From Mycobacterium sp. DL440 (GTDB lineage: Bacteria > Actinomycetota > Actinomycetes > Mycobacteriales > Mycobacteriaceae): a DNA stretch of 64,000 bases. The first letter of the stretch is position 1; every line of letters starts with the position of its first letter. The stretch lies in NCBI RefSeq assembly GCF_011745145.1, contig NZ_CP050191.1:124001-188000 (forward strand), read 5' to 3'. Below are positions 22,413 through 41,320 of the stretch, one piece after another. The notes below the pieces were generated by a model. It saw only the letters and a program-made list of their open reading frames with translations, was not told the origin of the DNA and did not search any database. The translations under genes and the position numbers were made by a program.

Positions 22413-22413
22413 G

Positions 22414-22719: not shown

Positions 22720-22761
22720 TGTAGGACAGCGGGGTGCTGGTTAGGGCTATCTGCTGTCCCG

Positions 22762-23793: not shown

Positions 23794-23845
23794 CGCTACC
23801 ACCCTGGCTGTCCGTGGGGATGACGGGTATGGGTTCCCAAAGTGG

Positions 23846-24214: not shown

Positions 24215-24332
24215 TCGGTCCGAGGTGGGCACCTGGTATGGGCTTTTGACGCTCGTCAAAGTTCTTGACGATGTCGGACCACCGACGTGACGTCGGGAAA
24301 CTCGCCGCGTTACAGGTGACCTTGCGCGGGTT

Positions 24333-24362
24333 CCATTGTCGATCATTTGTGATCGACAATGG
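24333..24362. terminator. Perfect 13-bp hairpin overlapping the stop of the restriction gene
   Basis: CCATTGTCGATCA - TTTG - TGATCGACAATGG is an exact inverted repeat with a 4-nt loop. The minus-strand restriction gene ends within it (its TGA falls at 24343-24345). It could terminate minus-strand transcription or be a binding site; there is no U-tract, which is usual for mycobacteria. Confidence 0.5.
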
Positions 24363-25666
24363 AGGAGGACTGGTTGGCACATGCGCCCTCTGGCTGCCCG
24401 TGTTTGGCGTGCATCGCTGGTGCACTGTCAAAGGCGATCGGTTCATTGGGCACTGCGACATCTACGGCCCCCACCTGACGCGCTGACGGAGCCAATGGAT
24501 GTTGCGTCGAAAGGTATGCAGCAAGCGATTTCTCGTCGGACAAACCCATTCTCCGCAAGACCGCAACCAGGTCTCTGCCTGTAATGAAGACGATTGGGTG
24601 CTGGTCCTCTCGTACTTCTTGGTAGGCCTGAGCGGCAATGAAGGCTGTGGTGACAAAGACCCCGAATTCTCGATGCTTAATCCGCGCGATCAGCCGACTC
24701 ACCAACTTGACGCCGACACCGCCACCGTCGGGGTCGTAGCACTTCGCCTCAAGGGCGAACTGCAGCCGGACCGGATCCTCATCCGGGCCAATGCGGAATT
24801 CTCCGATGGCGTCCCGCCCGCCGTCGCGACTGGGCCGTGTCACTTCGACTGATGCAACATGCGGATCGGAGTTGAGCCACATGTCTGCCGCGAAGTGTTC
24901 AAACTCGACTGGGGCCTCGGCGAAGTACTGGTGGACTGCGCGCATCAACCACACGTCACCAGATTTTGGCTGTTGTTCTTGTTTACTGCGCACCACGAGG
25001 TTTCGTGGCGCTTCGAGGGCCTGGTAGATCCGGGCCTTGACCCAGGACCGCCACTCGACGGGGCATGCGGCCCCGAGTGGATTTCCCGCGACGATCTCAT
25101 TGATCCATTCGCGGCGGACGATCGGTGTCTGGAGCACGGTGAAGTGGGAACGATAATTCTGGAACCGGAGGTCACGCGTGGTGCGCCATACGGCAACGAG
25201 TTCTTCGTCACTCGTCAATCGTGGAGACCCAGGCGCTAGCAGTCCACGGAACATAACGTCGCGGCCACTGACTTTTTCAAATAGGAACACGGGCGGCACT
25301 TTGAGTCGTTCATCTGCACCAGCACGGGATGCGGCGAAAATGTTCCGCAGCAACAGGTTTCCACCTCGCGGAGTTTCGTGAAGATCCTTAACCGGTTTCC
25401 GGTTATCGCCGTAGTAGGTGAAATCGCCCGTCGTTGGCTCGATGTGGTCGGGCCAGTCAACTTCGGCCCCGGAGGTGTTATAGCACCACAAGCCGCACGG
25501 CCCCATTCACGACGCTTCCTTTGAAGCGAAACCCGCCTTGGTTGCCAACGGGCAGGAGCTTTCCGATCGCATCGTCTCCGGCGTGGCCCTGAGTACCTCC
25601 TGAATAGACACGGTCCAAGACGAGGTCAGCCGCCGCAAGTTCACCGAATGGAACTTTCTCGGACAC
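24343..25666 (-). pseudogene. Mrr/PDDEXK-type restriction endonuclease gene with a -1 frameshift
   Basis: Two minus-strand frames make one protein of about 440 aa. The first (25666 to about 25486) begins MSEKVPFGELAAADLVLDRV and ends AVRLVVL; the second starts at YNTSGAEVDWPDHIEP and runs to 24343. The join LVVL-YNTSG is what intact relatives show, and one base appears missing at about 25485-25492. The C-terminal half has the PDDEXK site in the Mrr style: SRDGGRDAIGEF, then LQFALEAKCYDP, then REFGVFVTTAFIAAQAYQEV. The N-terminal half has WPDHIEPTTGDFTYYGDNRKP, a DNA-recognition region common in this group. Unless the base is a sequencing error, the enzyme is inactive. The gene is next to the NaeI-type system. 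Confidence 0.7.
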
Positions 25667-25874
25667 AAAGCCACCTCCGACGCTGGTAGTTGGGTTCTAC
25701 CTCAACATAAGTTAGGCGCTCGTTGGCCGGCACATAACGGTATGTCTCGCGGTGTCGGACCAAGCATTGGCAATTCTTGAGGCAGGACGGAACGTGCCCA
25801 GTTGCCAGAGTGCTCCATACCTCGTGTATGAATCACCCCGGCGCTGGACGGCACTCCGGCCTGCCTAGCGCTTC

Positions 25875-26858
25875 TCAAGCGCTACGCGCCACCATTGAGC
25901 TTCGAGACTTGGCTCGCCGCCCAAAAAGTGCTCGGGCGATACTCTGGCCGACGGCCGCAGCAACGGGCGGCGGGAATGCATTGCCAATTTGCCTGTATGC
26001 GGCGGTCTTTCGGCCGTAGAACATCCAATCCCTCGGGAACCCCTGGATGGCCGCAGCCATTTCAAGAGTTAACCGCGGAACGTGATGCAACGGTGTGGTG
26101 GCGTCGGGCCCGACGTTCGCTAGGCCTCTGCCGTCGACGCCGAGCGCCAGCCACGCCGCACGCGCCCGAGTCGGGCCCAGGTCTGGCCCGCCATGTTTCC
26201 GCGAACCCCCCACAATCGTCGGGCCCACATCGTTAGCCTTCTTCGCCCAGGCGGCCGCGCCGGGCCAGCCGTCACGTGCCATCAGTGGTTTGAGAATTTC
26301 GCCGACAGTCGTGGTCTTGGCAAGCGGCGTGGGCCAATGGAAGCTCTCGAAGTAGTTATCCTTGACTGCAACGAGGATAAATCGTGGCCGCAGCTGAGGG
26401 ACGCCAAAGTCGCTTGCGTTCAGCACTTGCCAATCTGCGCGGTACCCCATCGAAGCCAACTTGTCCAGGACCGATTGGCGGTAGCCGTCAAATTTTGCAG
26501 TAGACAGGCCCCGAACATTCTCAAGCATTACAGCAGTTGGCTTAGCTTCGGAGACCAGCCGCAGGGCTTCCGGGAAAAGGTCTCGCTCGTCGTCCTTGCC
26601 GAGTTGCTTGCCCGCGATCGAGAACGGTGGGCAGGGCACGCCGCCCGCGAGTAGGTCGATGCCACGGTACGGAAGGCCGTCTATCTCGCGTACGTCTCCC
26701 TCGTGGACCTTCCACTGCGGCCGGTTGATCCGCAGGGTTTCGCACGGTTCAGGCTCGATCTCTACCGCTAGTTCGTGTGCGAAACCGGCTCGCTCTAAGC
26801 CAAGGGACTGTCCGCCGGCTCCTGCGCAGATTTCTAGGCAGCTGAGTGTATTCGTCAT
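25875..26858 (-). CDS. DNA (cytosine-5-)-methyltransferase of a NaeI-type system
   Basis: The 327-aa enzyme shows the ordered C5-methyltransferase motifs: I (CLEICAGAGGQSLGLERAGF), IV with the catalytic cysteine (GGVPCPPFSIAGKQ), VI (VMLENVRGL), VIII (QLRPRFILV) and X (QIGNAFPPPVAAAVG). Motif IX and the target-recognition region lie at about 190-270. With a Vsr gene divergent from it and a NaeI-like nuclease beyond, it is probably the protecting methyltransferase for GCCGGC. GGAGG precedes the ATG, and an inverted repeat lies in the shared promoter region. Confidence 0.92.
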   Translation of the reverse strand: MTNTLSCLEICAGAGGQSLGLERAGFAHELAVEIEPEPCETLRINRPQWKVHEGDVREIDGLPYRGIDLLAGGVPCPPFSIAGKQLGKDDERDLFPEALRLVSEAKPTAVMLENVRGLSTAKFDGYRQSVLDKLASMGYRADWQVLNASDFGVPQLRPRFILVAVKDNYFESFHWPTPLAKTTTVGEILKPLMARDGWPGAAAWAKKANDVGPTIVGGSRKHGGPDLGPTRARAAWLALGVDGRGLANVGPDATTPLHHVPRLTLEMAAAIQGFPRDWMFYGRKTAAYRQIGNAFPPPVAAAVGQSIARALFGRRAKSRSSMVARSA

Positions 26859-26876
26859 CGGTTACCTCCGTCAGGT

Positions 26877-26894
26877 ATCGAATCTATGTTCGAT
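26877..26894. promoter_or_regulatory. Inverted repeat in the divergent methyltransferase/vsr promoter region
   Basis: ATCGAA-TCTATG-TTCGAT lies in the 97-bp gap between the divergent genes, about 19 bp upstream of the methyltransferase start. TAGATT near 26941 could be the -10 of a short-leader vsr transcript. Many C5-methyltransferases repress their own promoter; this is a candidate site. Confidence 0.35.
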
Positions 26895-26955
26895 TTGACT
26901 CGATCATGACTCACGCCACCGACAAGTGCTAGCACCGTCGTAGATTAGTCGCGTG

Positions 26956-27396
26956 ATGGCCAAAGGTGGCGCACCCACGCCGACGCGGCCCGGTTACACG
27001 ACATCGCCGGGCCGGTCACGCAACATGGCGGCCATACGTCGTGTTGATACCAAGCCAGAGATCGCCCTGCGGTCGGAGCTCCATCGCCTTGGCTACCGAT
27101 TCCGCAAGGATTTCCCGGTCCGCATCGACGGGCGGCTCATCCGACCCGACATCGTCTTCACAAAACGCAAAGTCGCTGTCTTCGTGGACGGATGTTTCTG
27201 GCATTGCTGCCCAGAGCACGGTCAACGGCCGAAAGTGAATGGTGAATATTGGTCGCCGAAGCTGGAGCGCAACGTCAAACGGGATCGTGAACAGACCGGA
27301 GCGCTGGAGTCCGCGGGCTGGATGGTCCTCCGGTTTTGGGCGCACGACCCTGCTGACGCGGTGGCCGACGCCGTCAGTCAAATACTGTCGGGGTGA
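26956..27396 (+). CDS. vsr: Very short patch repair (Vsr) endonuclease
   Basis: The 146-aa protein has the Vsr signature: RRVDTKPEIALRSELHRLGYRFR, RIDGRLIRPDIVFTKRKVAVFVDGCFWHCCPEH, YWSPKLERNVKRDREQ and GWMVLRFWAHDP. It nicks next to the T of T:G mismatches produced by deamination of methylcytosine and so offsets the mutagenic cost of the adjacent methyltransferase. GTG 26953 directly before the ATG is an alternative start. Vsr genes are known companions of NaeI-type systems. Confidence 0.93.
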   Translation: MAKGGAPTPTRPGYTTSPGRSRNMAAIRRVDTKPEIALRSELHRLGYRFRKDFPVRIDGRLIRPDIVFTKRKVAVFVDGCFWHCCPEHGQRPKVNGEYWSPKLERNVKRDREQTGALESAGWMVLRFWAHDPADAVADAVSQILSG

Positions 27397-27413
27397 ACTC
27401 GTCGGTTATGGGA

Positions 27414-28325
27414 CTATTCCTCCCTCACACCTCGCTCGGGCAATATGGGTGCCTCGCATTGTGGGTCATTGGGGATTGCTCGTCTCCAGTGGCATCCCTG
27501 GATCAGCGGATCTTTGCCGCTTCCGGCCGTCACGCGAACCGAAATGTAGTGCTTATCGTCTGGCTCCGGAACGCCGAGCGCCCTGGCCAGGTGAGCATGG
27601 TAGCTGCTCAAGATGATGTAGCCCTCCGGCTTTAACGCACTGCGGGCGCCGCCGTTCGTGCGCACCCGCTTCTGATCGTCCAGCTGCATCGCCACGGTCC
27701 GAACGGTGTTGCGGTGAACGAGTCGGCCTTCGGTTGCGCGGAACAATCGATTAACTCGTTGTGTGCCATAACGGTTGTCGAAGATGTGTGCCACCACGTC
27801 GTCTGGCAGTTGCAACAATATGCTTGCTGGCATGGGAGCGTCCCGCCACAGCCATTTGATTGCTTGGCGCCCAATAGGATTCAACGAGCTCTTCTTGTCA
27901 CGGTTGGACCCTTCGCGTCGATACGCCTCGGCGACACGAATGAGCCCGAGTGAGAATCGTGCGTCGGGGTCGCTCCCGGTAGCGACCAATGCGATCTCAT
28001 CGAAGACCTCCGGTGGGAGCATCCAGCCACCATCGGTTTGACTCCACTTAGCGTCGACTTGATGACCTGCGATGCGGTAGTCGGTCGTTTTGCCATCGTT
28101 GAAGCCGAACTCACGCTGGGCATTGATCTCGAAGACGGTGCCGAAATGTGTCCTCTCGGTCTTCGCCAGCTCTGACCAGCGAAATCTTCCCGTTTCAGGG
28201 CCGTTGTAGATCATGTCGTAGGTATGCCGCAGGACTGCTCCCCATCGAGCTCCGGTTGGGTCGAGGCGCAGGATCTCTGCTGCAACTTCTTCAACTGCCG
28301 AATCGACATGCGAATCCTCGGTCAC
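27414..28325 (-). CDS. NaeI-family type IIE restriction endonuclease
   Basis: From GTG 28325 the 303-aa protein follows NaeI as I remember it: VLRHTYDMIYNGPETGRF, LAKTERTHFGTVFEIN, NDGKTTDYRIAGHQVDAKW (catalytic D...D-x-K), GGWMLPPEVFDEIALV, VNRLFRATEGRLVHR and GGARSALKPEGYIIL in the second, allosteric DNA-binding domain. NaeI cleaves GCCGGC and needs a second site as effector. At the place where NaeI has Leu43 (whose change to lysine gives topoisomerase activity), this protein has isoleucine (DMIYNG), so ordinary cleavage is expected. In-frame codons upstream to 28598 do not look coding. It ends 17 bp from the vsr stop, convergently. Confidence 0.9.
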   Translation of the reverse strand: MTEDSHVDSAVEEVAAEILRLDPTGARWGAVLRHTYDMIYNGPETGRFRWSELAKTERTHFGTVFEINAQREFGFNDGKTTDYRIAGHQVDAKWSQTDGGWMLPPEVFDEIALVATGSDPDARFSLGLIRVAEAYRREGSNRDKKSSLNPIGRQAIKWLWRDAPMPASILLQLPDDVVAHIFDNRYGTQRVNRLFRATEGRLVHRNTVRTVAMQLDDQKRVRTNGGARSALKPEGYIILSSYHAHLARALGVPEPDDKHYISVRVTAGSGKDPLIQGCHWRRAIPNDPQCEAPILPERGVREE

Positions 28326-28579
28326 CCGCGGGAATCTACCGGAGGTGTCGGGACACGGGCGATCTCTGCCCAGTCCTCCACTCCCACCAATCGCGTTCCT
28401 CCGTGGACTGATAGCCAGGTTGCTCCAGGCAGCTGGCCAATTTTCATTCGCCGCGCGCCGGTCAGTATTCACTTGCAGCCAGCAAGTCAGCCAGGGCGGC
28501 CGCCAAACTCTCCAGAAGAGCTGTTTCTGTCGGTGGTGTGCCTTAACATCGGCCGCAGTAGCAGGATTCGAGAACCACG

Positions 28580-29536
28580 ATGCTGGGGGTAAACGCAACC
28601 GTGCCGGTTGATGACCGACGTCCGAAAGTGATGCTGGGGATTGCTGACAGCGCTAGCGAGGCTCCCGGCTGCGATGCGTTTATCGGTGCACTCATAAGTC
28701 TCGGTTCGTTGCTCCGGCGTTATCTTGGCAAGCTCGACGGCCGTCAGCTAGTTGTCGCGATCTCATTGCCTCGCCGAGATTACGCTGCCGCGCTTGTTGG
28801 TGCGGGATGGATGCTGTCTGCGCCAGCGCCAAACCTCACAGAACCGATCACTACCTTTCGCAGCACCGAGCAAGGCGCGTTTCTCAGAGCTGTTACCCAC
28901 GACAAAGTAGTCTCCGGCAGATTCACCTCGCTTAATGAGTCCCGCACGCCTGCCCGTGTGATTACCGGCGGCAGAACACTGGTGCTGTCGTCTGTCGAAG
29001 CCGTAGCTGAGATACCCGGCATCTGCGAATCGGTCATCGGCGACGTGCCGACACCTGGGTACCTGGCGCAATTGACGGCGGCCGTGGACACCTGGAGACA
29101 ACGAATAGCCTCGCCTCCAACGGATCTAGCGATAGTCGGTACTACGAAGTGGCTACTTGATGACTTCGCTGCATTGATTGGCAGTAGTAGCGCCGCCGAT
29201 GATATTGCGCCGCTGTCGAATTACGTGCTGCCAAACGTCCCAAAGGCCGCGACTTGGGCTACGACCGTGATCTCCTCTGCTCGACTGCGTGAGATCGACC
29301 CGATCCCACCCGATTGCCTAGCAGTCATTCTCGATCGCTATGGAGCAATTAAGTATCTTGACGAGATCACGGTGCCGATAGTTGTATGCATCATCGACCG
29401 ATCAGTAGCGGACGATTCAGCGGCCGAGCTGGTCGTTCAGGCTCGCGTAGCGAATAGCCAGCCTGTAGATGTGAGCGCTTTCCGTTGGCAATCGCCGCCT
29501 GGTGTCGAAGCACTAGCCTTCACCGTCGCGCTATGA
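28580..29536 (+). CDS. First gene of a DISARM-like defence operon, unknown (possible DrmE N-terminal part)
   Basis: The 318-aa soluble protein starts at ATG 28580 (a second ATG at 28631 is possible). It has alternating beta/alpha stretches (GRQLVVAISLPRRDYAAALVGAGWML, DLAIVGTTKWLLDDFAALIG, CLAVILDRYGAIKYL) that recall a P-loop-less helicase-like or Rossmann-type fold. No catalytic motif is seen. Its stop overlaps the start of the next gene by four bases, and the next four genes are likewise coupled. Together with the next product (822 aa in total) it is close to the size of class 2 DISARM DrmE; a split DrmE is my best guess. Confidence 0.5.
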   Translation: MLGVNATVPVDDRRPKVMLGIADSASEAPGCDAFIGALISLGSLLRRYLGKLDGRQLVVAISLPRRDYAAALVGAGWMLSAPAPNLTEPITTFRSTEQGAFLRAVTHDKVVSGRFTSLNESRTPARVITGGRTLVLSSVEAVAEIPGICESVIGDVPTPGYLAQLTAAVDTWRQRIASPPTDLAIVGTTKWLLDDFAALIGSSSAADDIAPLSNYVLPNVPKAATWATTVISSARLREIDPIPPDCLAVILDRYGAIKYLDEITVPIVVCIIDRSVADDSAAELVVQARVANSQPVDVSAFRWQSPPGVEALAFTVAL

Positions 29537-31047
29537 GTCGAATTCACCGGGTGATCAGTCGATATGCTGCATGCCGTGCTGTGCTTCGGGGCGGCGTCGA
29601 CATTTTTTCTGTCGGCGACCCAGCCGGTGCGCAGCTCAACGCCGCGGTGCGTAAAGCGCAGGTGACTATTGACGATGCCTACAGCGATATTTGGCAACCA
29701 CTGCTACGAGCAGCCAATGCTGTTCGCTGGCGCCGTCTCTTGCAGCCGCAACCGAACGCGCTCAGTCCCGGTCTTCGGGAGATTGTCGACGCTGTTCAGC
29801 GTGAAGCCGATGGGCTGCGAAACGTAGTGAATGACACTGCATTAGTCATCGAAATCGCAAACGCCGCAGTCCATGTGGGCGAGACTGATTCGCCTGTGGG
29901 CGCGGTGCTGTTGCAGTCAATACACGAAGTAGGCGTCGACAGATGTGTTGTCGTTACAAACAAGCGATCTACGCGTGCCGCTGTCGCTGAGTGGCTCCAC
30001 GGCCATGATGTCGCGATTGTGGCGCCAGGTGAGTACGACCGCATTGCCGATGAGGTGGAACAGACGTATGTGGTCGGTCCCCCCAACTGCTTCCCTGCCG
30101 CCATCATCTCCGCGCCGGCCACAGAAGCGGTCACATTCATGATGCCCGCGTGGTATTCGAACACCGCTCTTCCGGCCTCGGCACTCACTGGCTATACCGG
30201 CCAATCGAGAATCCGTACAAGAGTGCGTCCGGTTGGCGATATCGAACAACCCACAGAATCGACGGACACCGATCCACCACTTGTGGACAACTTCTTTCCA
30301 GCACCCGTGTGGGGTTCGCGTCAGTCTGAGGACCGCGAGCCTGCAAGCGACGAGGTCGAGGCCCGAAAGATTCTCCTCTGTGGCGGATTTCGCCTCTGGC
30401 TCGATGACGGCGAACGGATCCGCTCTCTCGACCCTTGCCAACCCGAAGGGGATCGAGTCAGTTACGAGGCGGTTGGCGGGGTTCGGCCCGGCACCTACCT
30501 CGTACTTCGTGAAGGCGCGACTGAGCGCGGTGCCATGTATGACGCTGCAGTCGCAGGTGCGGGTGACCGGGCCGCTGGCATGCTGACTACGCAGCTGGAA
30601 TGGAAGCACGCGCTCGCACAACGCTTGGAAAGGGATGGAGCTGACCGAGTCGCATCTGCACTGAGATCCCGCGGCATAAAGGAAGCCAGCAGGGTGCGCG
30701 CTTGGATCGACCCGACACTGATCTGTCCAAAGCGTGAGGCAAGCCTCAGTGTCGTGCTGGATTGGCTTGGAATACCACAAGAGCCGACGTTCACTAACGC
30801 CGTCACACTCCGGCGAGGGCTCTATCGTGCGATCGCAGACCTTCGTAAGGAACTTGAGAGCGCAGCCAGCCAGTCCGATCTGAACGCGTTGGAGCGAGAT
30901 GGCTTCCTACGACTCGACCTACACCGTGAGGGCTTTCGCAGCATGATAGTCACTCGGGTTATCGCCCGAGCACCGTTCACTGAGATCGTTCTCCGCAGTC
31001 AGACCAGGATCCCGTTCCCCGACGAAGGTGCGAAATGGCTCGAATGA
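29533..31047 (+). CDS. DISARM-like operon protein, DrmE-like
   Basis: The 504-aa protein begins at the ATG overlapping the previous stop. The middle (CVVVTNKRSTRAAVAEWL, DVAIVAPGEYDRIADEVEQT, YVVGPPNCFPAAIISAPATE) reads like a degenerate helicase C-terminal or sensor domain, and the end has an ARAPFTEIVLRSQTRIPFPDEG tail. This resembles the C-terminal half of DrmE-type proteins in class 2 DISARM as I recall them, but identity is by pattern only. No nuclease motif. The next gene starts 13 bp before its stop. Confidence 0.5.
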   Translation: MSRIHRVISRYAACRAVLRGGVDIFSVGDPAGAQLNAAVRKAQVTIDDAYSDIWQPLLRAANAVRWRRLLQPQPNALSPGLREIVDAVQREADGLRNVVNDTALVIEIANAAVHVGETDSPVGAVLLQSIHEVGVDRCVVVTNKRSTRAAVAEWLHGHDVAIVAPGEYDRIADEVEQTYVVGPPNCFPAAIISAPATEAVTFMMPAWYSNTALPASALTGYTGQSRIRTRVRPVGDIEQPTESTDTDPPLVDNFFPAPVWGSRQSEDREPASDEVEARKILLCGGFRLWLDDGERIRSLDPCQPEGDRVSYEAVGGVRPGTYLVLREGATERGAMYDAAVAGAGDRAAGMLTTQLEWKHALAQRLERDGADRVASALRSRGIKEASRVRAWIDPTLICPKREASLSVVLDWLGIPQEPTFTNAVTLRRGLYRAIADLRKELESAASQSDLNALERDGFLRLDLHREGFRSMIVTRVIARAPFTEIVLRSQTRIPFPDEGAKWLE

Positions 31048-32738
31048 TCCCCGCGTATTTTCCCGACGACGCACCCCCTGGTGAGAAGGCCCTTTACCGC
31101 GCGCTCGCGGAGAGTGGTGACACAGGTGACTGGATCGTGCTGCACTCCGTCGGGATTGCACACCACGTCAAGAACCCCGAAGGTGAGGCTGACTTTGTCA
31201 TCATCGCCCCTGAGTTGGGAGTCCTCGTCATCGAGGTCAAGTCGCATGAGTACATACACTTCGATGATGGAGTCTGGCATCTCGGAAACAAGTCCGAAAC
31301 ACGGGGCCCAATCAAGCAGGCAAGCCAGGCCAAGCATTCGATCCGTAACTTCCTGGCGCGCAAGCAAGTCGAGCTTCGATCATTACCTGTAGTGAGCGCG
31401 GCGTGGTTCACGGCGGTGCGTGCTCGGTCGACACTGCCTAGCTCAGCCGAATGGCACGATTGGGAGATTCTCGATTCTGAGGATCTCAAGCGGAGCCCAA
31501 TCGCAGCCATTCGCCGCACGCTTGCGGCGGGCACAGCGCATCTCGACGAGAAGTTTCACGGCTTCAGCTACGGCGGCGTAGGCCCCGACATCGAAACGGC
31601 TAAGCGGATCGCGATGTTGCTTCGACCGAGTTTCGAAGTCGGAGTGGTCGCCGGCGATATGCGCAATGCCCGCGAGAAGGACTTGATCCGTTTCGTCGAG
31701 GAGCAATATCAAGCTCTCGACTCCATGGCGGACAACAAACGCGTGCTCTTCACTGGACCAGCGGGCTCAGGCAAGACGCTGCTGGCGATGGAGGCAGCTC
31801 GACGCGAGATCGCCATGGGCAACCGGGGCAGGCTCCTCTGCTTCAACCGATTCCTCGGTCAACGCCTGAAGGCAGACATGCCTGATGATGCAGCGTTGAC
31901 AGTAGGCACCTTTCACAGTCAATTGCTCGACCTCGCGGGTATTTCAGCTCCGACCGAACCAGATGCTGATTTCTGGACTCACTTCCTGCCCGCGCAAGCA
32001 CTCGAATCCCTGATCAACGCAGGCGATGAAGCTCAAGGTGATTTCCTCATCATCGACGAGGTTCAGGATGTGCTGAACGATTCTTACCTCGATGTGCTTG
32101 ACCTGATGGTCAAGGGAGGGCTCCGGGCCGGGCGCGTGTTGATGTTTGGCGATTTCGAGCGCCAAGCAATATTCGATGGAGGGACCGGCCGCGCCCTCGT
32201 GGATGCGCGAATACCGCATCTTCCGACAAACAGGCTTGTAATGAACTGCCGGAATCTCCCGCGCATCGGCTATAGCGTCAACATCTTCAGCGGGTTGAAG
32301 CCTGGCTACCAACACTTTCGGCGCGATGACGATGGATTCAATCCGGTGTGGTTGAAGTACCGGCGTGGCGATGATCAGTCGCAGCGACTCCGCGAGGCAG
32401 TACAAGCGCTGCGGGGCGACAACTACGAGCTGAACGAGATTGTGGTGTTAAGCCCGCTTGGAAGCGAATCGGTCGCGGCGTCAACAACTGACACCTGGTT
32501 GCGTCAAGTGCTCAAGCCGACTGATGGGCGATCGAGTAATCGGGGTGAGCTCCGTTACTCGACGATCCATGCCTTCAAAGGCCTTGAAGCGCCGGCGGTT
32601 ATCGTCACGGACCTCGATCGCGACTCAGTGCCAAACTTCGAATCGCTTCTCTATGTGGGGCTAACGCGTGCAACCGACAGGCTCTACGGTTTGGTCGAGG
32701 CAAGTACCGGATTAGCAGGCTTGGAGGGCAAACTGTGA
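31035..32738 (+). CDS. NERD-domain UvrD-like helicase
   Basis: The 567-aa protein has an N-terminal NERD nuclease-related domain (EGEADFVIIAPELGVLVIEVKSHEY, with the D...E-V-K of PDDEXK enzymes, about residues 50-75). From about 230 follows a superfamily 1 ATPase: Walker A TGPAGSGKTLLAMEAA, Walker B FLIIDEVQDV near 340, STIHAFKGLEAPAVIV near 510 and the terminal YVGLTRATDRLYG. It likely degrades or remodels invading DNA. Overlaps at both ends (13 bp upstream, 4 bp downstream) tie it to the DISARM-like operon. Standard DISARM does not list a NERD-UvrD protein, so its inclusion is notable. Confidence 0.85.
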   Translation: MARMIPAYFPDDAPPGEKALYRALAESGDTGDWIVLHSVGIAHHVKNPEGEADFVIIAPELGVLVIEVKSHEYIHFDDGVWHLGNKSETRGPIKQASQAKHSIRNFLARKQVELRSLPVVSAAWFTAVRARSTLPSSAEWHDWEILDSEDLKRSPIAAIRRTLAAGTAHLDEKFHGFSYGGVGPDIETAKRIAMLLRPSFEVGVVAGDMRNAREKDLIRFVEEQYQALDSMADNKRVLFTGPAGSGKTLLAMEAARREIAMGNRGRLLCFNRFLGQRLKADMPDDAALTVGTFHSQLLDLAGISAPTEPDADFWTHFLPAQALESLINAGDEAQGDFLIIDEVQDVLNDSYLDVLDLMVKGGLRAGRVLMFGDFERQAIFDGGTGRALVDARIPHLPTNRLVMNCRNLPRIGYSVNIFSGLKPGYQHFRRDDDGFNPVWLKYRRGDDQSQRLREAVQALRGDNYELNEIVVLSPLGSESVAASTTDTWLRQVLKPTDGRSSNRGELRYSTIHAFKGLEAPAVIVTDLDRDSVPNFESLLYVGLTRATDRLYGLVEASTGLAGLEGKL

Positions 32739-35700
32739 GCGGTGTAGGGGCGCGGGCGACTGTAGAGGCCGCAGTGCGTCGTGAGCTGTTTGGCCCAGCT
32801 CCAGGAGATGAGCCGGCCGGCAAGCCCGTTGATTGCGCCAACCTTGCCCTTCAATTTCAATCGAAGGAAGAATGTGAGGGGCAGTTCCATGATCGTGACA
32901 CGGCGGAGGAGATACTCACCCGCTCCGATCCATTGCGCAGGTACGGCGTTGGCGTTCTCTATAGCGGCGGAACCCCTGATTCTGGGTCAGCAAGTGAGCC
33001 TCTCATCATCCCCGGGGTCTCGGCTAACGAGGGCGATATCGACCACCCCCCGCCAGAGGAGAAGGTCCGTGGCGGACACACGTATGCCGATTCCGACGAC
33101 TTCGACCTATCTGATGCGAACCGGCGTCGTCCGTCCGCCATGGCGATCTCGTTCAAAGTCCGAGTGCCCGAAGGCAGCTCGTTGAAGGTACTTGTGACCG
33201 GCGCTTACTACGACAAAGTTTCAGTAACTGCGCCCGAAAAGCCTCCAATGAACTGGCATGTGCGACGCCCATTTGCAATCGAGGGGTCGGTCTCGGCAGA
33301 TGCGCTGCTTCAGGATAAGAAGCGGACGGCCCCGACTATGACTCCCGTGGTTCTAGAACCGAAGATTCCGCCGCGGATTCAGCCGTCGGTGACAGCCTTT
33401 ACCCGTACCGTCCCAAATGAATCGGACCCCGATCTGCGGCTCGTGACACTTGCGGTCGTTAACAACGTCCTGGGCACCGGGCCCAATTCTGCATTCTTCC
33501 AGGTGGCGTTCACAGCTACGGCGGAAAATGGCCTGCGGATCGAGCCCTATCCGGATATCGAGCAGGCCGATAGCGATATCGAAGAAAATTCCATTGCACT
33601 CCTCTACCGGTATCAGCGTACATTCGCGATCGGGCATGGCTGTGCAGCTGAGTGGGATTCCGTTGTCGACTCCGGCACCACTTCGCCGTTTGTTCAACGC
33701 GTCGCAGCAGAATCATTGCCTGCTTATGAGGTTGTCAGTCTGACCCCGGATGTCTATGACGATCGAAACGGCGCGCGCACGCCAGTCAGCGTCAGCATGG
33801 AAGAGCTCGCGGCGGGATCAGATACCGGACGGGAGCAGATCGAGACAGTGCTGTCGCTCTACCGGCAGTGGATCGTCGATCGTCGATCGTCGGTCACGGA
33901 CCTTCCTGAGCGGTATCACGCCGCCGCAACGCGACATATGGATCTTTGCGATACAGCGCTCGATCGAATGGAAGAAGGCTGGCAGCTCGTAGGCTCCAAC
34001 CCACTTGCAACTCGCGCATTCCGGCTAGCTAATCAGGCGATGCTCTACCAACAACTCAGATCGCGGTTGCCGCTCAGGGCCCTTATCTTCGGTAAGGACA
34101 AGGTGTACCGTCCGGAAGGCGCGCATCCCGACCCCCAGCCCGATGAAAGATCAGGACGCTGGCGCGCGTTTCAGATCGCTTTCGTCCTGGCGAGTCTGCC
34201 GGAGTTGATCGACCCAAGTCATCACCGTCGCACCCTCGTCGATCTGATTTTCTTCCCTACGGGCGGCGGAAAAACCGAGGCATATCTTGGTGCTTCGGCA
34301 ATCTCGCTGCTCGCCAGGCGATTACGCGATAAGGCCGACGCGGGCACGGACACACTCATGCGGTACACCCTCCGCCTACTGACAGCGCAGCAGTTCATTC
34401 GCGCATCCTCACTGATTTGTGTCTTGGAGGATATGCGATCCAAACTTGAAAATGAGCTTGGGACAGCGCCTTTCGGGATCGGTGTATGGCTAGGCGGTGA
34501 GTCGACACCAAATAGATGGACTGCCGCCGACAAAAGTCTCAAGACGCTACAGCGCGACTACTACGCGCCAAACCAGTTCCTCCTCCTCAAATGCCCGTGG
34601 TGTGGCACCAAGATGGGGCCAGTCCGAAAGGCGAAAGGGCAAGACACTCCCGGTTACGTCAGGAGTGGGAACAAGATTGTCTTTCGCTGTATCGACGATC
34701 TCTGCCGATACGGTGGGGGCAAGAAGAGCCTGCCTGTGCACGTCGTCGACGAAGATATCTACGATACCCGGCCATCGATAGTGATTGGTACCGTCGATAA
34801 GTTCGCAACAATGGCGTGGCAGCCAGACGCTGGATCGCTCTTTGGTCTGAATAGCCATGGCGAAAGGGTTTTTTCCCCTCCTGGTTTGATTATCCAGGAT
34901 GAGCTACACCTGATCTCGGGACCACTCGGCTCGATGGTAGGGCTGTACGAACCCGTCATCGACGATCTCACAACGGACCGGCGCGACGGAGTGACGCTGC
35001 CCGCAAAGATCATCGCGTCGACCGCTACGGCGCGACGATACGAAGACCAGATCATGGGATTGTTCGGCCGCAACGAAGTCGCATTGTTTCCGCCCCATGG
35101 ACTGGAAGAGGGCCACTCATTCTTCGCCGAACCAGCAACACTGCCAGATGGCACACGTGCCCCAGGGCGCCGTTACGTCGGCGTAATGAGCTCATCACTG
35201 GGCTCCACGCAAACCGTCCAGGTTCGAGTTGCATGCGCCACTTTGCAAGCTGCGCAGACGATTCCAGATCCCGCGGATCGAGACGGTTACTGGACCAACC
35301 TCAACTTCCTGAATAGCCTGCGCGAGCTTGGTAATACGGTTTCGCTGCTGGCTTCAGATATTCCAGACTATTTAGTCGGAGTGCAGCGACGTGATGGGAT
35401 CACACCACGCTGGCCCAGCAACACGATGGAGCTCACGTCTCGCCGGAGGAGTGATGAGATTCCGAAAGCGATTGAAGAGCTTGAGGTCACTCTCCCCAGT
35501 GCCGACTGCATTGATATCTGCCTTGCATCCAACATCATTGAGGTCGGCGTGGACATCGACCGCTTGGGGTTGATGACAATCGTCGGTCAACCCAAGACGA
35601 CTGCGCAGTACATTCAAGTCAGTGGTCGCGTCGGACGCAACCCCAAGGCGCCTGGGCTTGTGCTAACCATCTACGGTGCCAACAAGCCCCGCGACCGAAG

Positions 35701-36193
35701 CCACTATGAACGCTTCCGCACATACCATCAACGCCTCTACGCTCAAGTCGAACCGACGTCGGTGACCTCGTTCGCTGAGCCGGTGCTTAAGCGAGCGCTA
35801 CATGCAGCGGCAATCTCGCGGATGCGCCAGGTATCGCCGAACTTAACGCCAGACCCTTTCCCGCAGAAAGCCTTCGACGAAGCGATAGCCTTACTGAGGA
35901 TGCGAGCCGAACTCGTTGATCCAGAGGAACTTCCGATATTCGATCACTGGGTTAAACAACGCTCAAGAGAGTGGCGAACTGGCGAGCGGACTGCTTGGGC
36001 CGCAACCAAGTACTTCAACGGTGACCCTCTTAACGGGCTCATGCGCCCAGCAGGCGAGCTAGCCGATCCCAACAACAAGACGGTGACCTGGGATACGCCG
36101 ATGAGTATGCGCAGTGTGGACGCCGAATGCCAAGTGCGGGTTACGTACGCGTACATCGATGACAATCGAGAGGCGGTGCCTAACGATGACTAG
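32735..36193 (+). CDS. drmA: DrmA-like helicase of a DISARM-like system
   Basis: The 1152-aa protein starts with GTG overlapping the previous stop. Motifs in order: Walker A FFPTGGGKTEAYLG near 505, a zinc-ribbon-like insert (LLKCPWCGTKMG...FRCIDDLCRYGG) near 618-655, motif II QDELHLISGPLG near 720, SAT-type motif ASTATARRYEDQ near 750, and a helicase C lobe (SNIIEVGVDIDRLGL, YIQVSGRVGRN) near 930-970. The PTGGGKTEAYLG and QDELHLI versions of the motifs, together with a DUF1998 gene immediately downstream, are characteristic of DrmA. The helicase acts with DrmB on incoming DNA in known DISARM. Confidence 0.85.
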   Translation: MSGVGARATVEAAVRRELFGPAPGDEPAGKPVDCANLALQFQSKEECEGQFHDRDTAEEILTRSDPLRRYGVGVLYSGGTPDSGSASEPLIIPGVSANEGDIDHPPPEEKVRGGHTYADSDDFDLSDANRRRPSAMAISFKVRVPEGSSLKVLVTGAYYDKVSVTAPEKPPMNWHVRRPFAIEGSVSADALLQDKKRTAPTMTPVVLEPKIPPRIQPSVTAFTRTVPNESDPDLRLVTLAVVNNVLGTGPNSAFFQVAFTATAENGLRIEPYPDIEQADSDIEENSIALLYRYQRTFAIGHGCAAEWDSVVDSGTTSPFVQRVAAESLPAYEVVSLTPDVYDDRNGARTPVSVSMEELAAGSDTGREQIETVLSLYRQWIVDRRSSVTDLPERYHAAATRHMDLCDTALDRMEEGWQLVGSNPLATRAFRLANQAMLYQQLRSRLPLRALIFGKDKVYRPEGAHPDPQPDERSGRWRAFQIAFVLASLPELIDPSHHRRTLVDLIFFPTGGGKTEAYLGASAISLLARRLRDKADAGTDTLMRYTLRLLTAQQFIRASSLICVLEDMRSKLENELGTAPFGIGVWLGGESTPNRWTAADKSLKTLQRDYYAPNQFLLLKCPWCGTKMGPVRKAKGQDTPGYVRSGNKIVFRCIDDLCRYGGGKKSLPVHVVDEDIYDTRPSIVIGTVDKFATMAWQPDAGSLFGLNSHGERVFSPPGLIIQDELHLISGPLGSMVGLYEPVIDDLTTDRRDGVTLPAKIIASTATARRYEDQIMGLFGRNEVALFPPHGLEEGHSFFAEPATLPDGTRAPGRRYVGVMSSSLGSTQTVQVRVACATLQAAQTIPDPADRDGYWTNLNFLNSLRELGNTVSLLASDIPDYLVGVQRRDGITPRWPSNTMELTSRRRSDEIPKAIEELEVTLPSADCIDICLASNIIEVGVDIDRLGLMTIVGQPKTTAQYIQVSGRVGRNPKAPGLVLTIYGANKPRDRSHYERFRTYHQRLYAQVEPTSVTSFAEPVLKRALHAAAISRMRQVSPNLTPDPFPQKAFDEAIALLRMRAELVDPEELPIFDHWVKQRSREWRTGERTAWAATKYFNGDPLNGLMRPAGELADPNNKTVTWDTPMSMRSVDAECQVRVTYAYIDDNREAVPNDD

Positions 36194-38105
36194 CGGGAAC
36201 ATGAGGCGGGCTCAGCTCGTGACTCCATTCGGCGTGGGCGCAATGAGTGTCCTCGTCGACGGAACGTCCGTAATCACAGCCGGCCTTGACCATTGGTTTC
36301 CCCGCGACAACCAGGACCTCGTCCTTCAGGATTTCGTAGTCCACGACTGGCGGCTCGAATCGCGCCTGAAGGTCAAGGAATTCCGGTTGCCGCCCGACTA
36401 CAGGCCTGGCTTTGGCGACGATCGACGCAATACTAAACTCTCGGTACCTGCCTTGCGCTTTCCCCGCTACGCATTCTGCATGTACTGCAAGAGACTGAAG
36501 ACAGTACCGCTTAGTTTCCAAGATGCGGTGCGATGCGAAGACCCAGCCCATATCGGCGGTAAGGGCAAGGGGCCGAAGATGTCCCAGGTGCCGTTTGTCG
36601 CAATTTGCGAGGCTGGACACCTTGATGACTTTCCGTTTCGGGAGTGGGTGCATCGCACTGCAACTCCCAATTGCAGCGGTACGTTGCGGTTGGTGTCAAC
36701 TGGGGCTGGAGGCCTGGAGGGCCAAGTAGTCCGTTGTGGCTACGATGCCAAGAACCAAAGGGACGAGCGGCAAGGCTGTGGCGCGACTCGCACGCTGATG
36801 GGAGTCACGATGGCTGGCCGCCGGGACAAAGATGGTAATGAGTCCACAGTTCTCACTCAGGAGCTCGATAAGAGTGCGCCGTATTTTTGCACCGGTGCAC
36901 GCCCCTGGTTGCATGAATTGAGCGGGACCTGCGACCAGCCGGTACGAGGTGCGCTCCGTGCGGCAGGGAACGTCTACTTCCCGCGGGTGGAATCGTCAAT
37001 CTTCCTGCCTCAGAAGATCGGTGCGGTTAGCGGTGCGATGCGGACGCTTCTTGAGCGCCCGGATGTGAGTCCCGTACTTGACGCCGTACATGCCTTCGTT
37101 GGTGCTGACGCCACAGCAGCGCAGATTCGTATGCAGTTGCCTGGCGAACTGTTCGACTCTCATTCCGACGCCGAACTGGTTGACGCCTATAGAGACCGGT
37201 ACGGGATCGGGGAAGTGAACGCGACTGAAGGCGATGAAGACTCGGAAGATCTCGATATCTGGAGGTATCCCGAGTTCAAGATGATCCGCGAGACGCCTGA
37301 CGACGACGCTCTTCGCGCGTCAGACCCGGGCGTTCCCCCGGACCTTCGTTCGCACGTCGAGCGTGTCCGCAGTGTGACGGTCCTGCAAGAAACTCGTGCC
37401 ATGCGCGGGTTCACGCGCGGTCGCGACAGCGATCTCAAGGTTCCGGTCGGAAAGGCGCTCCTGCGTCGCCACCCCCTCGAACCGGATAGGGACTGGCTGC
37501 CGGCGTACGTAGTCAGGGGTGAAGGCATCTATCTCGAGCTGGACGCAGACAACCTCATTCGTTGGGAGTCCCGAGGGGATGTTCAGCAACGGGTTGATCA
37601 AATCGGAGCTCAATACGGGAAGGTGATATCTGACCGTGGAGGGCGACCCCGCGACATCAGCCCGCGCATGGTTATGCTGCATACGCTGGCTCACCTGCTA
37701 ATTAACGAACTTGTCTTCACATGCGGCTACAGCTCGGCGTCACTTCGTGAACGCCTATATGTATCGCGCGACGCCCCACGCACGATGGCGGGGCTGCTGA
37801 TCTACACGGCTGCTGGCGATTCTGAAGGCACAATGGGCGGGCTCGTTCGAATGGCTCGGAGAGATCATCTTCGGCCGATTTTCACTGCAGCGCTCAACGA
37901 CGCACGTTGGTGTTCGACCGACCCAGTCTGTATGGACGCAGGCCAAAGGGGCCAGGGACCGGATTCATGCAACCTCGCCGCGTGCCATGGATGCTCACTG
38001 TTGCCCGAAACCAGTTGCGAGGAATTCAACCGGTTTCTGGATCGCGGGCTGGTTATTGGAACGTTTGATGATCCGACGCTCGGATACTTCTCGGACTTCA
38101 GCTAG
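36186..38105 (+). CDS. drmB: DrmB-like protein (DUF1998) of a DISARM-like system
   Basis: The 639-aa protein starts at ATG 36186, eight bases before the end of drmA. The N-terminus (RRAQLVTPFGVGAMSVLVDG) is typical of DrmB. A CMYCKRLK...RCEDPAH pair near residue 98 may bind zinc, and the C-terminal DUF1998 region has HTLAHLLINELVFTCGYSSAS, GTMGGLVRMAR and a cysteine cluster (CSTDPVCMD...CNLAACHGCSLLPETSCEEFNR) near 576-620. In DISARM, DrmA and DrmB form a complex that binds phage DNA ends. It is the last gene of the operon; no PLD nuclease (DrmC) follows. Confidence 0.85.
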   Translation: MTSGNMRRAQLVTPFGVGAMSVLVDGTSVITAGLDHWFPRDNQDLVLQDFVVHDWRLESRLKVKEFRLPPDYRPGFGDDRRNTKLSVPALRFPRYAFCMYCKRLKTVPLSFQDAVRCEDPAHIGGKGKGPKMSQVPFVAICEAGHLDDFPFREWVHRTATPNCSGTLRLVSTGAGGLEGQVVRCGYDAKNQRDERQGCGATRTLMGVTMAGRRDKDGNESTVLTQELDKSAPYFCTGARPWLHELSGTCDQPVRGALRAAGNVYFPRVESSIFLPQKIGAVSGAMRTLLERPDVSPVLDAVHAFVGADATAAQIRMQLPGELFDSHSDAELVDAYRDRYGIGEVNATEGDEDSEDLDIWRYPEFKMIRETPDDDALRASDPGVPPDLRSHVERVRSVTVLQETRAMRGFTRGRDSDLKVPVGKALLRRHPLEPDRDWLPAYVVRGEGIYLELDADNLIRWESRGDVQQRVDQIGAQYGKVISDRGGRPRDISPRMVMLHTLAHLLINELVFTCGYSSASLRERLYVSRDAPRTMAGLLIYTAAGDSEGTMGGLVRMARRDHLRPIFTAALNDARWCSTDPVCMDAGQRGQGPDSCNLAACHGCSLLPETSCEEFNRFLDRGLVIGTFDDPTLGYFSDFS

Positions 38106-38514
38106 CTGCGGGCGGCTGCCGCACGTGCCGAGAATCGCGAGTAGTCTTTGCCGGGCGTCGATTTGGGGATCGCGTGCAGTGGTGGGTTTGGACGCTGAGG
38201 AGGTGGTGAGTGCCCGTTGTTGAGTCCACCCGGTCTTAGAGTCGGGTTTGTTTGATCCGGATTCAGTTGATCTCGCAGGCCACCGGGGTGCGGGAGCACC
38301 TGCATGCCGCGGCGTACTCGGCGGGTGTTCGGCAGCCCGGTGCTGAGTGACGGTGTCGGTGGTTGTGCTCGTGCTTGAAGTCACCTCAGCCCAGCAGAGT
38401 TCGCCTGGGCGGAGCGGGGTTGGTTGGCGACAGGCTCCCCTCAAGGTCACCTATTCGGCCATTGACCATCAAGTTCGGCGAATCGTTTCCGCACCTGCCC
38501 CGCGTGCTTGGCGT
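38106..38514. other. 409-bp non-coding stretch after drmB
   Basis: Only short unsupported frames are present. Codon bias in the minus frame at 38102-38305 hints at a decayed gene, but I cannot assign it. No clear hairpin terminator or att-like repeat was found. Confidence 0.4.
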
Positions 38515-39537
38515 TCACGGCTTGACGGCTCTCGGCTCCCGCTTCGCGACCCCCGGCAGATCATGCCGATGGCGCGCGGAAGAGGCGTTTACGACGGCGT
38601 CGCGGTAGTCCTTCATGGCTGTGCCAAATTCGAAGATCGCTGCGCTATCTAGCTGTGGTAGTCCAACGGTGTAGCGACTGCAGATTAGTTTTGCAGGGAG
38701 GCTGCCACACGTTAGTACGGCCTGGGTACCGGCAACCATCTTGTCGAGATAGTTGATCCTGTTGCGAAAGAACTTTTCATGAGGATCGAACATTGCCAAT
38801 CGTTCAACCGGCAATACGTAGCCAGGTGGAGGTTCGTGCAGCTTTGACCACCCGTATTCGGCGTACGACTGCAACTGCGACGGCACCTGGGCTTCGCGAA
38901 AGAGTGCCATGCTCGTCCGCTGCAGTGTGCGCTGTACCTCCGACGACTGGCGGTCTGTGAGCGGAGACAACCACGACGGTAGCCAAATCAGGTTTGGCAT
39001 GAACGAGTACAGCCACGGGTCTGCACCAGCAAGTGTTCTGTCGGGCATGTCCCGCCAGATATGGCAGGCGGTGAATCCGCGCCACGGCTTGCGATCGCGA
39101 TAGGGATGGTCGAGCGGGGCTGACACTACGCACGTGAGCGGAAGCTTCTTGATGATCGAGTTGTCGTCCCGAAGGTAGCCGTCGTCGCGGGGCGCGCCCC
39201 ACGACTCTGGACCTTGGTCGTATCTGCAGGAGCGGTCCCGGACACACCAAGGCACGATTACCGGTAACTGGCTGTAGCCCTGTGGTGACCACCAGATGCC
39301 GAGTTTCTCGATAAGCCTGTTGGTGATATCCATGAACTCGTGGCTGGGCGCTCCAGAGACGTCGCCGCCCTCCTGCATACCGCGGGCTAGGTAGGCATAC
39401 AGCGCTTTGGATCGCGGTGCGTGTTCCGCGACAACACTGCTCTGGCTGAGCCGGTCGAGTTCATGCGCGATCTCGACTGACCCATCAATCCCCGTCACAG
39501 CCAGAATCGTAGGCTGTCGCTCCATGACAGCCGTCAC
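38515..39537 (-). CDS. Unknown protein between DISARM-like and McrBC genes
   Basis: The 340-aa frame starts with GTG 39537 (ATG 39525, MERQPTILAVTG, is also possible). The protein is soluble, tryptophan- and proline-rich (GIWWSPQGYSQLPVIVPWCV, KPWRGFTACHIWRDMPDRT, FMPNLIWLPSWLSPLTDRQ) and has a CVRDRSC cysteine pair. The HIWRDMP and conserved tryptophans suggest a recognition or nuclease-like fold, but no known catalytic motif is clear. It is a single gene on the opposite strand to drmB, inside the defence island, and may belong with McrBC or be an independent defence gene. Confidence 0.6.
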   Translation of the reverse strand: MTAVMERQPTILAVTGIDGSVEIAHELDRLSQSSVVAEHAPRSKALYAYLARGMQEGGDVSGAPSHEFMDITNRLIEKLGIWWSPQGYSQLPVIVPWCVRDRSCRYDQGPESWGAPRDDGYLRDDNSIIKKLPLTCVVSAPLDHPYRDRKPWRGFTACHIWRDMPDRTLAGADPWLYSFMPNLIWLPSWLSPLTDRQSSEVQRTLQRTSMALFREAQVPSQLQSYAEYGWSKLHEPPPGYVLPVERLAMFDPHEKFFRNRINYLDKMVAGTQAVLTCGSLPAKLICSRYTVGLPQLDSAAIFEFGTAMKDYRDAVVNASSARHRHDLPGVAKREPRAVKP

Positions 39538-39705: not shown

Positions 39706-40062
39706 TTGTTGTTATTCCAAGAATCTGGATGTCACGCAAGCGGCTATCAGACCTCTGGGGGTCTGTTGGTGCTTGCCGGTTCTAAAGGTCGCTCTGCGCT
39801 CCGTCCGTCGGCTCGGGCCGGCCTCGCGGCGCATCGAGACGTCCTGCTACAGGAGGGCATTATCAAGATTGGGGGCGAGGAAATCGTTTTCCTGAAAGAC
39901 CATCTGTTGTCCAGCCCGTCAGCCGCAGGTTCTGTGCTGGTTGGTGGCGATACCAACGGACGCGCCAACTGGCGTGATGGCCAGGGTCGATCCATAAACG
40001 ATCTCGAACAAATGGCCCTGTCGGCGGCGGAAGAGACACACCTCAACGAATCTTCACAGTAG
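39706..40062 (+). pseudogene. C-terminal fragment with a DUF4357 domain
   Basis: The frame ends with GGLLVLAGSKGRSALRPS, then LLQEGIIKIGGEEIVFLKDH and SPSAAGSVLVGGDTNGRANW, which is the DUF4357 pattern found at the C-terminus of GIY-YIG and related nucleases. The codons before it (to 39706) do not form a nuclease domain and no good start is seen, so the gene seems truncated at its 5' side. It overlaps the end of mcrC by 20 bp on the opposite strand. Confidence 0.55.
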
Positions 40063-41320
40063 GATGCCGCGGCGCGCGCAGTCGGGGGTACGAAATACCG
40101 GTGCTTGACATCGATTTCAACCAACTGGCGAGGTGATCAGCGAGGTGATCGGCGGCGCTTTCCGGATCGGGCTCGTCGGTGTTCCAGTTGATGCCGCGGA
40201 TATCCACTGGCCCGATGCCGACCCGCTCGCCGACTTCCTCACTGCTGAACCCGATGACGACTGCGGCATTGACTCCATACCCTGTCGCGAATGTCGTAAT
40301 CTGATTCAGATCGGCACGACCGATTGATCCGTCAGGGGAGATTTTGTACTTGATATCTCCGACTGCGGCCGAGTCCCCAAACACCAGATCTGGGTTGAGT
40401 TTCCGCTTCCTGTCGCCGGTCACAACGATCCCTCGTTTGGTGATGTTCCAGTGCGTTCCTAGGCGCTGAGACAAGCTGTTTCGCACACCGGCCTCGACTG
40501 CGTCGGGCGTTCTACACAGGAATGTCCACATGCTGTGGGCACCTTGCTGTATCGCGACACTGCTTCCTTTTAGGATCAGAAGTGCTAAGGGGAGGGCATC
40601 CTTGTAGATGCGCGTGAGCGCGTCGAGGCGCACCATCGTGTCCCAATATTCGAGGTCACCGACGTCACTTAGCCGGTATTGAATCCGTCGGCATCGCGCG
40701 TGCAGGTCATCGGACAGGCCAGGCCACCCCTGCAGTCGAAGCGAGGCGGCTTTCAAGACCCGGTTCAAACTTGTGTCATCGCTTCGTAGGTCGTAGTCGC
40801 AGCGGATTACGGGTCGACCCACGAGAACCGAACGCGCGGTCTTCACTGTATGAATGCGTGCACGTGCGCATGCGAGATCTCCAGTAACACGGGTGTAGTC
40901 GCTTACCAAGCCATGCCGGAGCAGCTCTTCACAAGATTGAACAAACCACATTGCGATGACGTTGAAGAAGCTTGGATCGGAGCCGAGCTGAGTTCGCTCG
41001 AGCAGGTGGCGAGGGAATTGCTCTGATGCTGCGAACAGATACAACAGGTGCGCAAGCGCGATCTTGGGCTCGACGATGATCTGAGTGTGTTCAAGTCCGA
41101 TCACACCGATTGCATCTGACACCCGAACCCGATATTCGGAGCCGGCGACCCCGTGGCAGCGCACTACGGTCCTCGGCGACTGTTCTTCGTTAGATTCGTC
41201 GCTGCCCCACCATCGCCTCTGCGATGCGAGCCTCTCGCCGATGTGCTGGAGGCTGGTTACTTCCTCGTTCGTCAGCATCACCGTTGTGTCGGATGACTCA
41301 GTGAGTCGCACGGTTCTCAT
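40043..41320 (-). CDS. mcrC: McrC-like nuclease subunit of a methylation-dependent restriction system
   Basis: I chose ATG 41320 because it overlaps the mcrB stop (ATGA). The 425-aa protein has the McrC plan: an N-terminal DNA/partner-binding half (GVIGLEHTQIIVEPKI, HLLYLFAASEQF), a central helical region (DDTSLNRVLKAASLRL) and a C-terminal PDDEXK nuclease with KLNPDLVFGDSAAVGDIKYK (D...D-x-K, about residues 315-335). McrC cuts when activated by the McrB GTPase translocating on DNA with modified cytosines. The 3' end overlaps a DUF4357 fragment on the other strand. Confidence 0.88.
   Translation of the reverse strand: MRTVRLTESSDTTVMLTNEEVTSLQHIGERLASQRRWWGSDESNEEQSPRTVVRCHGVAGSEYRVRVSDAIGVIGLEHTQIIVEPKIALAHLLYLFAASEQFPRHLLERTQLGSDPSFFNVIAMWFVQSCEELLRHGLVSDYTRVTGDLACARARIHTVKTARSVLVGRPVIRCDYDLRSDDTSLNRVLKAASLRLQGWPGLSDDLHARCRRIQYRLSDVGDLEYWDTMVRLDALTRIYKDALPLALLILKGSSVAIQQGAHSMWTFLCRTPDAVEAGVRNSLSQRLGTHWNITKRGIVVTGDRKRKLNPDLVFGDSAAVGDIKYKISPDGSIGRADLNQITTFATGYGVNAAVVIGFSSEEVGERVGIGPVDIRGINWNTDEPDPESAADHLADHLASWLKSMSSTGISYPRLRAPRHPTVKIR

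Follow-up and report, generated by a model that had tools for sequence, protein, structure and literature searches.

A 64,000-nucleotide stretch of Mycobacterium sp. DL440 (NZ_CP050191.1, positions 124,001 to 188,000; hereafter the window) carries at 28580-38105 an operon built around the DrmA and DrmB proteins of DISARM (defence island system associated with restriction-modification). With a probability of about 0.6, we read this operon as a DISARM-type anti-phage variant in which a NERD-UvrD protein would act as effector, a two-part protein would occupy the place of DrmE, and a nearby C5-cytosine DNA methyltransferase (C5-MTase) would provide the self-mark. Open reading frame (ORF) calls and the sequence itself confirmed the layout proposed in an initial annotation of this DNA, namely five plus-strand genes with stop-start overlaps of exactly 4, 13, 4 and 8 bp:

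28601..29536 (or from 28580), plus strand: gene 1, an ORF of 311 aa (318 aa from 28580) with 245 relatives
29533..31047, plus strand: gene 2, an ORF of 504 aa with a RecA2-like N-terminal half and a DrmE_C-like C-terminal half
31035..32738, plus strand: gene 3, NERD plus UvrD-type superfamily 1 (SF1) helicase, 567 aa (Pfam NERD, UvrD_C_2)
32735..36193, plus strand: gene 4, DrmA-type helicase, 1152 aa (PADLOC, NCBIfam), with V1128 as counterpart of the 5-methylcytosine (5mC) sensor valine
36186..38105, plus strand: gene 5, DrmB (DUF1998/MZB), about 639 aa (PADLOC, NCBIfam, Pfam)

The DrmA-DrmB core and the five-gene order

Window proteins were assigned to families using Pfam, PADLOC and NCBIfam, with statements of no family made at E<=0.01. 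In both PADLOC and NCBIfam, DISARM models scored best for the last two genes, which bears out their identification as DrmA and DrmB. Gene 4 matched PADLOC DrmA at 655 bits and NCBIfam DISARM_DrmAS at 802 bits, a score under that model's cut-off of 950, along with 508 bits for the long DrmA model and an E value of 3.4e-135 against structure 7s9v_A. Gene 5, encoded separately from DrmA, reached 408.6 bits with NCBIfam DrmB_fam (cut-off 240) and 38.4 bits with Pfam MZB. In the available portion of a study of Serratia DrmAB, 5mC lowers the DNA-stimulated ATPase activity, V1296 is the proposed sensor, and the DrmA trigger loop is proposed to choose DNA by its structure (Bravo 2022, PMC9142583). All 18 family rows with a letter at the site retain the aligned valine (V1128 in the window) and the R1294 counterpart, and 19 of 19 retain that of K803; R810 is replaced by Q in the window. 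A second MZB-domain protein of the same genome (G000:C1:4697387-4697626, L001; 790-aa frame) is perhaps a YprA/MrfA-type repair helicase.

Relatives of the operon were collected by scanning one-per-species genomes with two peptide patterns of gene 2, so that more distant members will have been missed. This yielded 20 loci (L003-L022), all bearing actinobacterial names. Genes 1 and 2 are adjacent in every one of them, 17 of 19 loci extending past gene 2 have NERD-UvrD next (all but L016 and L021), and DrmA and DrmB follow where the contig reaches. Start codons permitting overlaps of 4-13 bp occur at nearly all junctions of the relatives, the overlap given being that of the start closest to a 4-bp overlap. 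Because this order is retained even where gene 2 has diverged to about 29-40% identity, it reflects more than chance. The initial annotation would have been refuted by first three genes lacking a consistent link to drmA-drmB; the link is present in nearly all loci, these having been found via gene 2 itself. The same five genes occur on plasmid pROB02 of Rhodococcus opacus B4, which is typed as mobilizable, where vsr, NaeI, HNH and C5-MTase genes flank them.

The family is rare, with gene 1 and gene 2 found in the same two of 396 phylum genomes, the window's genome included, and one positive among 198 genomes of a genus sample. A DrmA tree, built by a quick method, midpoint-rooted, with several long branches and leaving out L006 and L016 (under 900 aa), placed the window, 17 loci and pROB02 in one clade with support 100, adjoined by two further loci, L083 (95) and L084 (99). 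Host families are mixed within this clade, which fits horizontal transfer. The only non-actinobacterial name among the relatives listed is that of a record named Fimbriimonadaceae bacterium, in which a gene 1 and a gene 2 relative (P0082 and P0141) have neighbouring tags; this is either a transfer or a misplaced contig.

NERD-UvrD, DrmC and the DrmE position

In gene 3, Pfam detected NERD at 51 bits and UvrD_C_2 at 42.6 bits, and the catalytic residues are kept in 18 of 18 cases. As initially noted, a gene of the phospholipase D (PLD) type could not be found in the 64-kb window, either with the HKD pattern or with a DrmC hidden Markov model (HMM) made for this analysis and grown from five HKD-pattern proteins; the nearest PLDc_2 match in the genome lies about 1.2 Mb off. 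At the other loci, DrmC, NERD-UvrD, methyltransferases and NaeI were sought in fetched stretches of up to 10 kb, some ended by a contig edge, and DrmC had no match in those of L003-L022 and pROB02.

We then turned to DrmA loci in general, using an evenly drawn sample in which 24 of 246 phylum genomes were positive, giving 25 loci. Eleven of these carry a DrmC-like gene, seven carry NERD-UvrD, seven carry neither, and none carries both. The corresponding exclusion has P=0.007 assuming independent loci, an assumption that these loci do not satisfy. The seven NERD-UvrD-bearing loci are the window, L013 (standing for G050; the two genomes have identical PLD positions and were counted once), L075, L078, L079, L081 and L083. 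This distribution supports the proposal that NERD-UvrD replaces DrmC. A UvrD-like protein adjoins DrmB in L079-L082, and the DrmA-DrmB loci L075, L079, L081 and L082 have NERD-UvrD before or after the pair, or a UvrD-like gene at DrmC's usual place beside DrmB.

Genes 1 and 2 of the window matched no family at the threshold above, in line with their initial description as proteins of unknown family, and the PADLOC DrmE model had no match among the window genes. The sets A1 and A2 contain 28 and 31 proteins, respectively, each drawn from 120 listed relatives. Links to DrmE emerged from gene 2: the DrmE_C domain was detected in 23 of 31 gene-2 relatives, with the window copy under the cut-off, the C-terminal part of gene 2 gave a profile match to DrmE, and one relative (P0134) had already been named DrmE domain-containing protein by NCBI. 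Structures were predicted for the two products singly. By fold comparison, the N-terminal half of the gene 2 model resembles a superfamily 2 (SF2) RecA2-type fold, and inspection by eye revealed no helicase signature motifs in this protein, which is thus probably a pseudo-helicase. The gene 1 model is an alpha/beta protein with a small beta barrel inserted (predicted local distance difference test score, pLDDT, 75.3).

Three loci of the DrmA survey illustrate how the position ahead of drmA can be filled. L083 encodes a 329-aa protein (gene-1 HMM, E 4.7e-5) and a 512-aa protein (gene-2 HMM, E 1.9e-26), followed by NERD-UvrD, DrmA and DrmB, and has a co-directional C5-MTase scoring 380 bits with the DrmMII model. 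In L084, which belongs to the same genus as the window, genes of 310 and 536 aa precede DrmA and DrmB, without NERD-UvrD; the 536-aa gene matched the gene-2 HMM (E 2.8e-8), and the 310-aa gene gave no significant match (E 0.15). In L078, a single 898-aa gene precedes NERD-UvrD, DrmA and DrmB, with a convergent C5-MTase. An alignment of the gene-2 profile with this protein covers residues 483-888 in 359 columns, a result reached by none of 40 shuffles, although the HHalign probability is only 1.2%, and the DrmE HMM touches residues 708-880 (E 0.005). By sequence comparison, the L078 protein may thus be a fused counterpart of genes 1 and 2, which we take as a lead and not as proof.

Neighbouring methyltransferase and restriction genes

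Divergently from the operon, three genes extend leftward of gene 1, with the NaeI gene, which the initial annotation does not mention, directly adjoining it:

27414..28598 (open frame), minus strand: NaeI-family type II restriction endonuclease (PF09126, 301 bits)
25875..26858, minus strand: C5-cytosine DNA methyltransferase (PF00145, 230 bits; PADLOC DruM2 623, MTase_II 428 and DrmMII 127 bits)
24343..25506, minus strand: AspBHI-like methyl-directed endonuclease (AspBHI_N plus Mrr_cat), adjoining the C5-MTase

The NaeI gene probably starts near 28300, because its Pfam domain spans only 27462-28289. Its E...D...DxK region, which we take to be catalytic, is kept in the window and in the five relatives shown.

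Across the window and L003-L022, 18 of 21 loci have a C5-MTase, or a piece of one, within the fetched stretch, where per-genome gene numbers would predict about 0.2. For this expectation, pieces of split genes were merged and an edge fragment in G602 was left out, which shifts the value from 0.17 to about 0.18; whole-genome matches and locus genes were equated by coordinate comparison. In 10 of the 21 genomes, the locus gene is the sole PF00145 match. The enzymes are of different kinds, one shared by the window, L003, L007, L010, L014, L017, L020 and L021, and a second, located upstream, by L004, L005, L006, L012, L013, L016, L018 and L022. The enzyme of L019 stands apart from both, and L009 has only a piece at the locus edge. 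The absence of an own methyltransferase, claimed in the initial annotation, describes the window, where the gene is divergent and behind NaeI, but does not extend to the family, since a C5-MTase is co-directional with the operon and within 350 bp of it in 10 of 20 relatives. The linkage across 18 of 21 loci supports the suggestion that self-marking may be borrowed from this enzyme, and that of the window is presumed to be both the partner of NaeI and the self-mark of the operon.

NaeI itself is found beside the window operon, on pROB02 and in the fetched stretches of L009, L010, L014, L017 and L020, with a remnant in L011. At the level of whole genomes, it occurs in 8 of 20 relatives versus 3 of 395 sampled phylum genomes (Fisher 9e-10, for sets unmatched for defence-island content), and the sample's remaining three NaeI loci, L087-L089, lack such an operon in the fetched stretch. 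The L011 remnant (2145-2366, with one TGA inside by the whole-genome match) sits just ahead of gene 1, hinting that the restriction enzyme was lost while the operon remained. In L014, NaeI, C5-MTase and AspBHI-like genes stand in a row upstream of the operon (3006-6562), matching the three kinds of gene that adjoin the window operon, and AspBHI-like relatives lie near the operon in both L013 and L014. NaeI is named after Nocardia aerocolonigenes, a name that now leads to Lentzea aerocolonigenes, the species of L015.

The GC content is 0.58-0.60 at 24-42 kb compared to 0.62-0.67 over most other parts of the window (9-12 kb also has 0.575), which would fit an acquired island. On the other side of the operon, a 340-aa protein without a family match (38515-39537, minus strand) is convergent to DrmB, followed by two proteins, one McrC-like (PF10117) and one of the AAA type carrying an EVE domain (40043-43998, minus strand), likely a modification-dependent restriction pair sharing the island with the C5-MTase.

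Competing readings, mechanism and comparison with known systems

The reading of genes 1 and 2 as a split drmE, put forward in the initial annotation, is open to challenge. They could instead be separate subunits, with gene 2 sharing only the DrmE_C domain and gene 1 unrelated, a reading that we consider a serious contender falling somewhat short of even odds. Two comparisons weigh against a split DrmE: the gene 1 profile matched DrmE no better than shuffled profiles did, and it found nothing in the 898-aa protein of L078, where its alignment to residues 41-370 was equalled by 39 of 40 shuffles. Without a DrmE match for gene 1, a split drmE is plausible only, and gene 1 a possible counterpart of the DrmE N-terminal part. 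Separate subunits would however have to be reconciled with the combined length of genes 1 and 2 (311 + 504 aa), which matches that of DrmE (the 18 proteins in set A3 measure 772-858 aa), with their joint presence in all 20 loci and both positive phylum-sample genomes, and with the single gene in their place in L078. The earlier claim is thus upheld for the DrmE_C-like gene 2 and the summed lengths, and not for gene 1.

A different challenge concerns the methyltransferase, as the operon and the NaeI restriction-modification pair could be independent neighbours, the former, DISARM-like, distinguishing self from non-self purely by the structure of the DNA. The surrounding defence island, with its AspBHI-like nuclease, NaeI and McrB/McrC-like genes, is consistent with this, as are NaeI loci whose fetched stretches lack the operon (L087-L089) and the structural DNA selection proposed for the trigger loop in the portion of PMC9142583 covered. 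We nonetheless find it unlikely, given a C5-MTase linkage far above chance, the genomes with no other C5-MTase, the co-directional genes at the operon edge in half of the relatives, and the enrichment of NaeI in operon-bearing genomes, within the limits of that unmatched comparison. Finally, the operon might be no defence system at all and function in DNA repair or in controlling plasmids, in the manner of the MrfAB helicases, which belong to its superfamily: the YprA family includes DNA-repair helicases, according to the part of PMC12458937 available. This appears very improbable for an operon whose genes 4 and 5 best match DISARM models and which occurs rarely and patchily (in 2 of 396 genomes from the phylum), sits among restriction genes and shows intermingled host families in the DrmA tree.

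If the operon is indeed a DISARM-type variant, the C5-MTase nearby would mark the host, from beside NaeI in the window and from the operon edge in other members. DrmAB would be the DNA-sensing helicase core, loading on unmethylated 5'-overhang DNA and held back by 5mC, while the NERD-UvrD protein, at DrmC's place, would likely be the DNA-degrading effector that cuts and unwinds. Genes 1 and 2, as a probable two-part protein at DrmE's place and an apparent pseudo-helicase, may scaffold, assist or regulate. Where NaeI is present, this mark would protect the host against that enzyme too, and the DNA ends made by NaeI could serve as entry points. A nuclease other than the usual DISARM one names a candidate effector and renders the question testable. 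An exchange of methyltransferases that also draws on one next to a restriction enzyme would point to 5mC as sufficient for the self-mark, whatever its motif, and would link type II restriction with DISARM. The literature covered, seen in part, was not found to assign a function to DrmE, for which the gene 2 model provides a lead in suggesting that part of it may be an inactive SF2 helicase. More tentatively, and in our view rather doubtfully, these operons may represent a third DISARM class assembled from exchangeable modules, with a two-part DrmE-type pseudo-helicase, NERD-UvrD for DrmC, and one 5mC mark shared with NaeI. If so, one methyltransferase would shield the host from both sequence-specific and sequence-independent attack, and a phage having lost its NaeI sites would still face the second.

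Among known systems, class 2 DISARM (drmE, drmA, drmB, drmC, drmMII) shares with the operon DrmA and DrmB, the presence of a DrmE_C-like domain ahead of drmA, and the association with a C5-methyltransferase. It differs in that the operon lacks DrmC, encodes DrmE, if such it is, in two genes, and has a NERD-UvrD gene ahead of drmA. Moreover, the operon's methyltransferase is not a fixed operon gene (127 bits with DrmMII versus 623 with DruM2 in the window), and in the midpoint-rooted tree the window DrmA is separated from the one of L026, a locus with DrmE. The resemblance to class 1 (drmD, drmMI, drmA, drmB, drmC) lies in DrmA, which best matches the short NCBIfam model (802 vs 508 bits) and falls on the same tree side as the class 1 locus L067. 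Unlike in class 1, no DrmD, DrmMI or DrmC was found for the operon, the first two being without a match among the ten window proteins scanned (22192-39537); the positive example L067 scored 945 and 1654 bits for DrmD and DrmMI.

TALON likewise combines a YprA-family helicase and a NERD nuclease within one operon, and the portion of its description consulted (Bell 2025, PMC12458937) reports systems found mostly in Chloroflexota, in which an ARMADA-like helicase carries fused, inactivated RNase H domains and is accompanied by TPR-CSD and TBP genes. Here, by contrast, DISARM-type DrmA and DrmB are two genes and NERD is fused to a UvrD-type helicase; as nothing in the five operon proteins matched RNase H, TPR, CSD or TBP families at E<=0.01 and the DUF1998 part is a separate gene, membership of TALON was rejected. 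The best PADLOC match of gene 3 is the NERD-helicase of a reverse-transcriptase (DRT) system (PDLC03813, 107 bits over its length), but its operon partners here are DrmA and DrmB. The neighbouring endonuclease with its C5-MTase gene alongside resembles a NaeI type II restriction-modification system, here a recurrent neighbour of a DISARM-like operon. No description of the five-gene operon was found in the literature on DISARM, NERD-UvrD, NaeI and DrmE (supplementary tables apart). Since the PADLOC definitions of type I and type II DISARM each need DrmC, as far as the part of PMC9252829 available goes, the operon falls outside both. Overall, judging from gene content, it is filed as a new DISARM-related variant, DISARM-like by its core and a member of neither class as defined.
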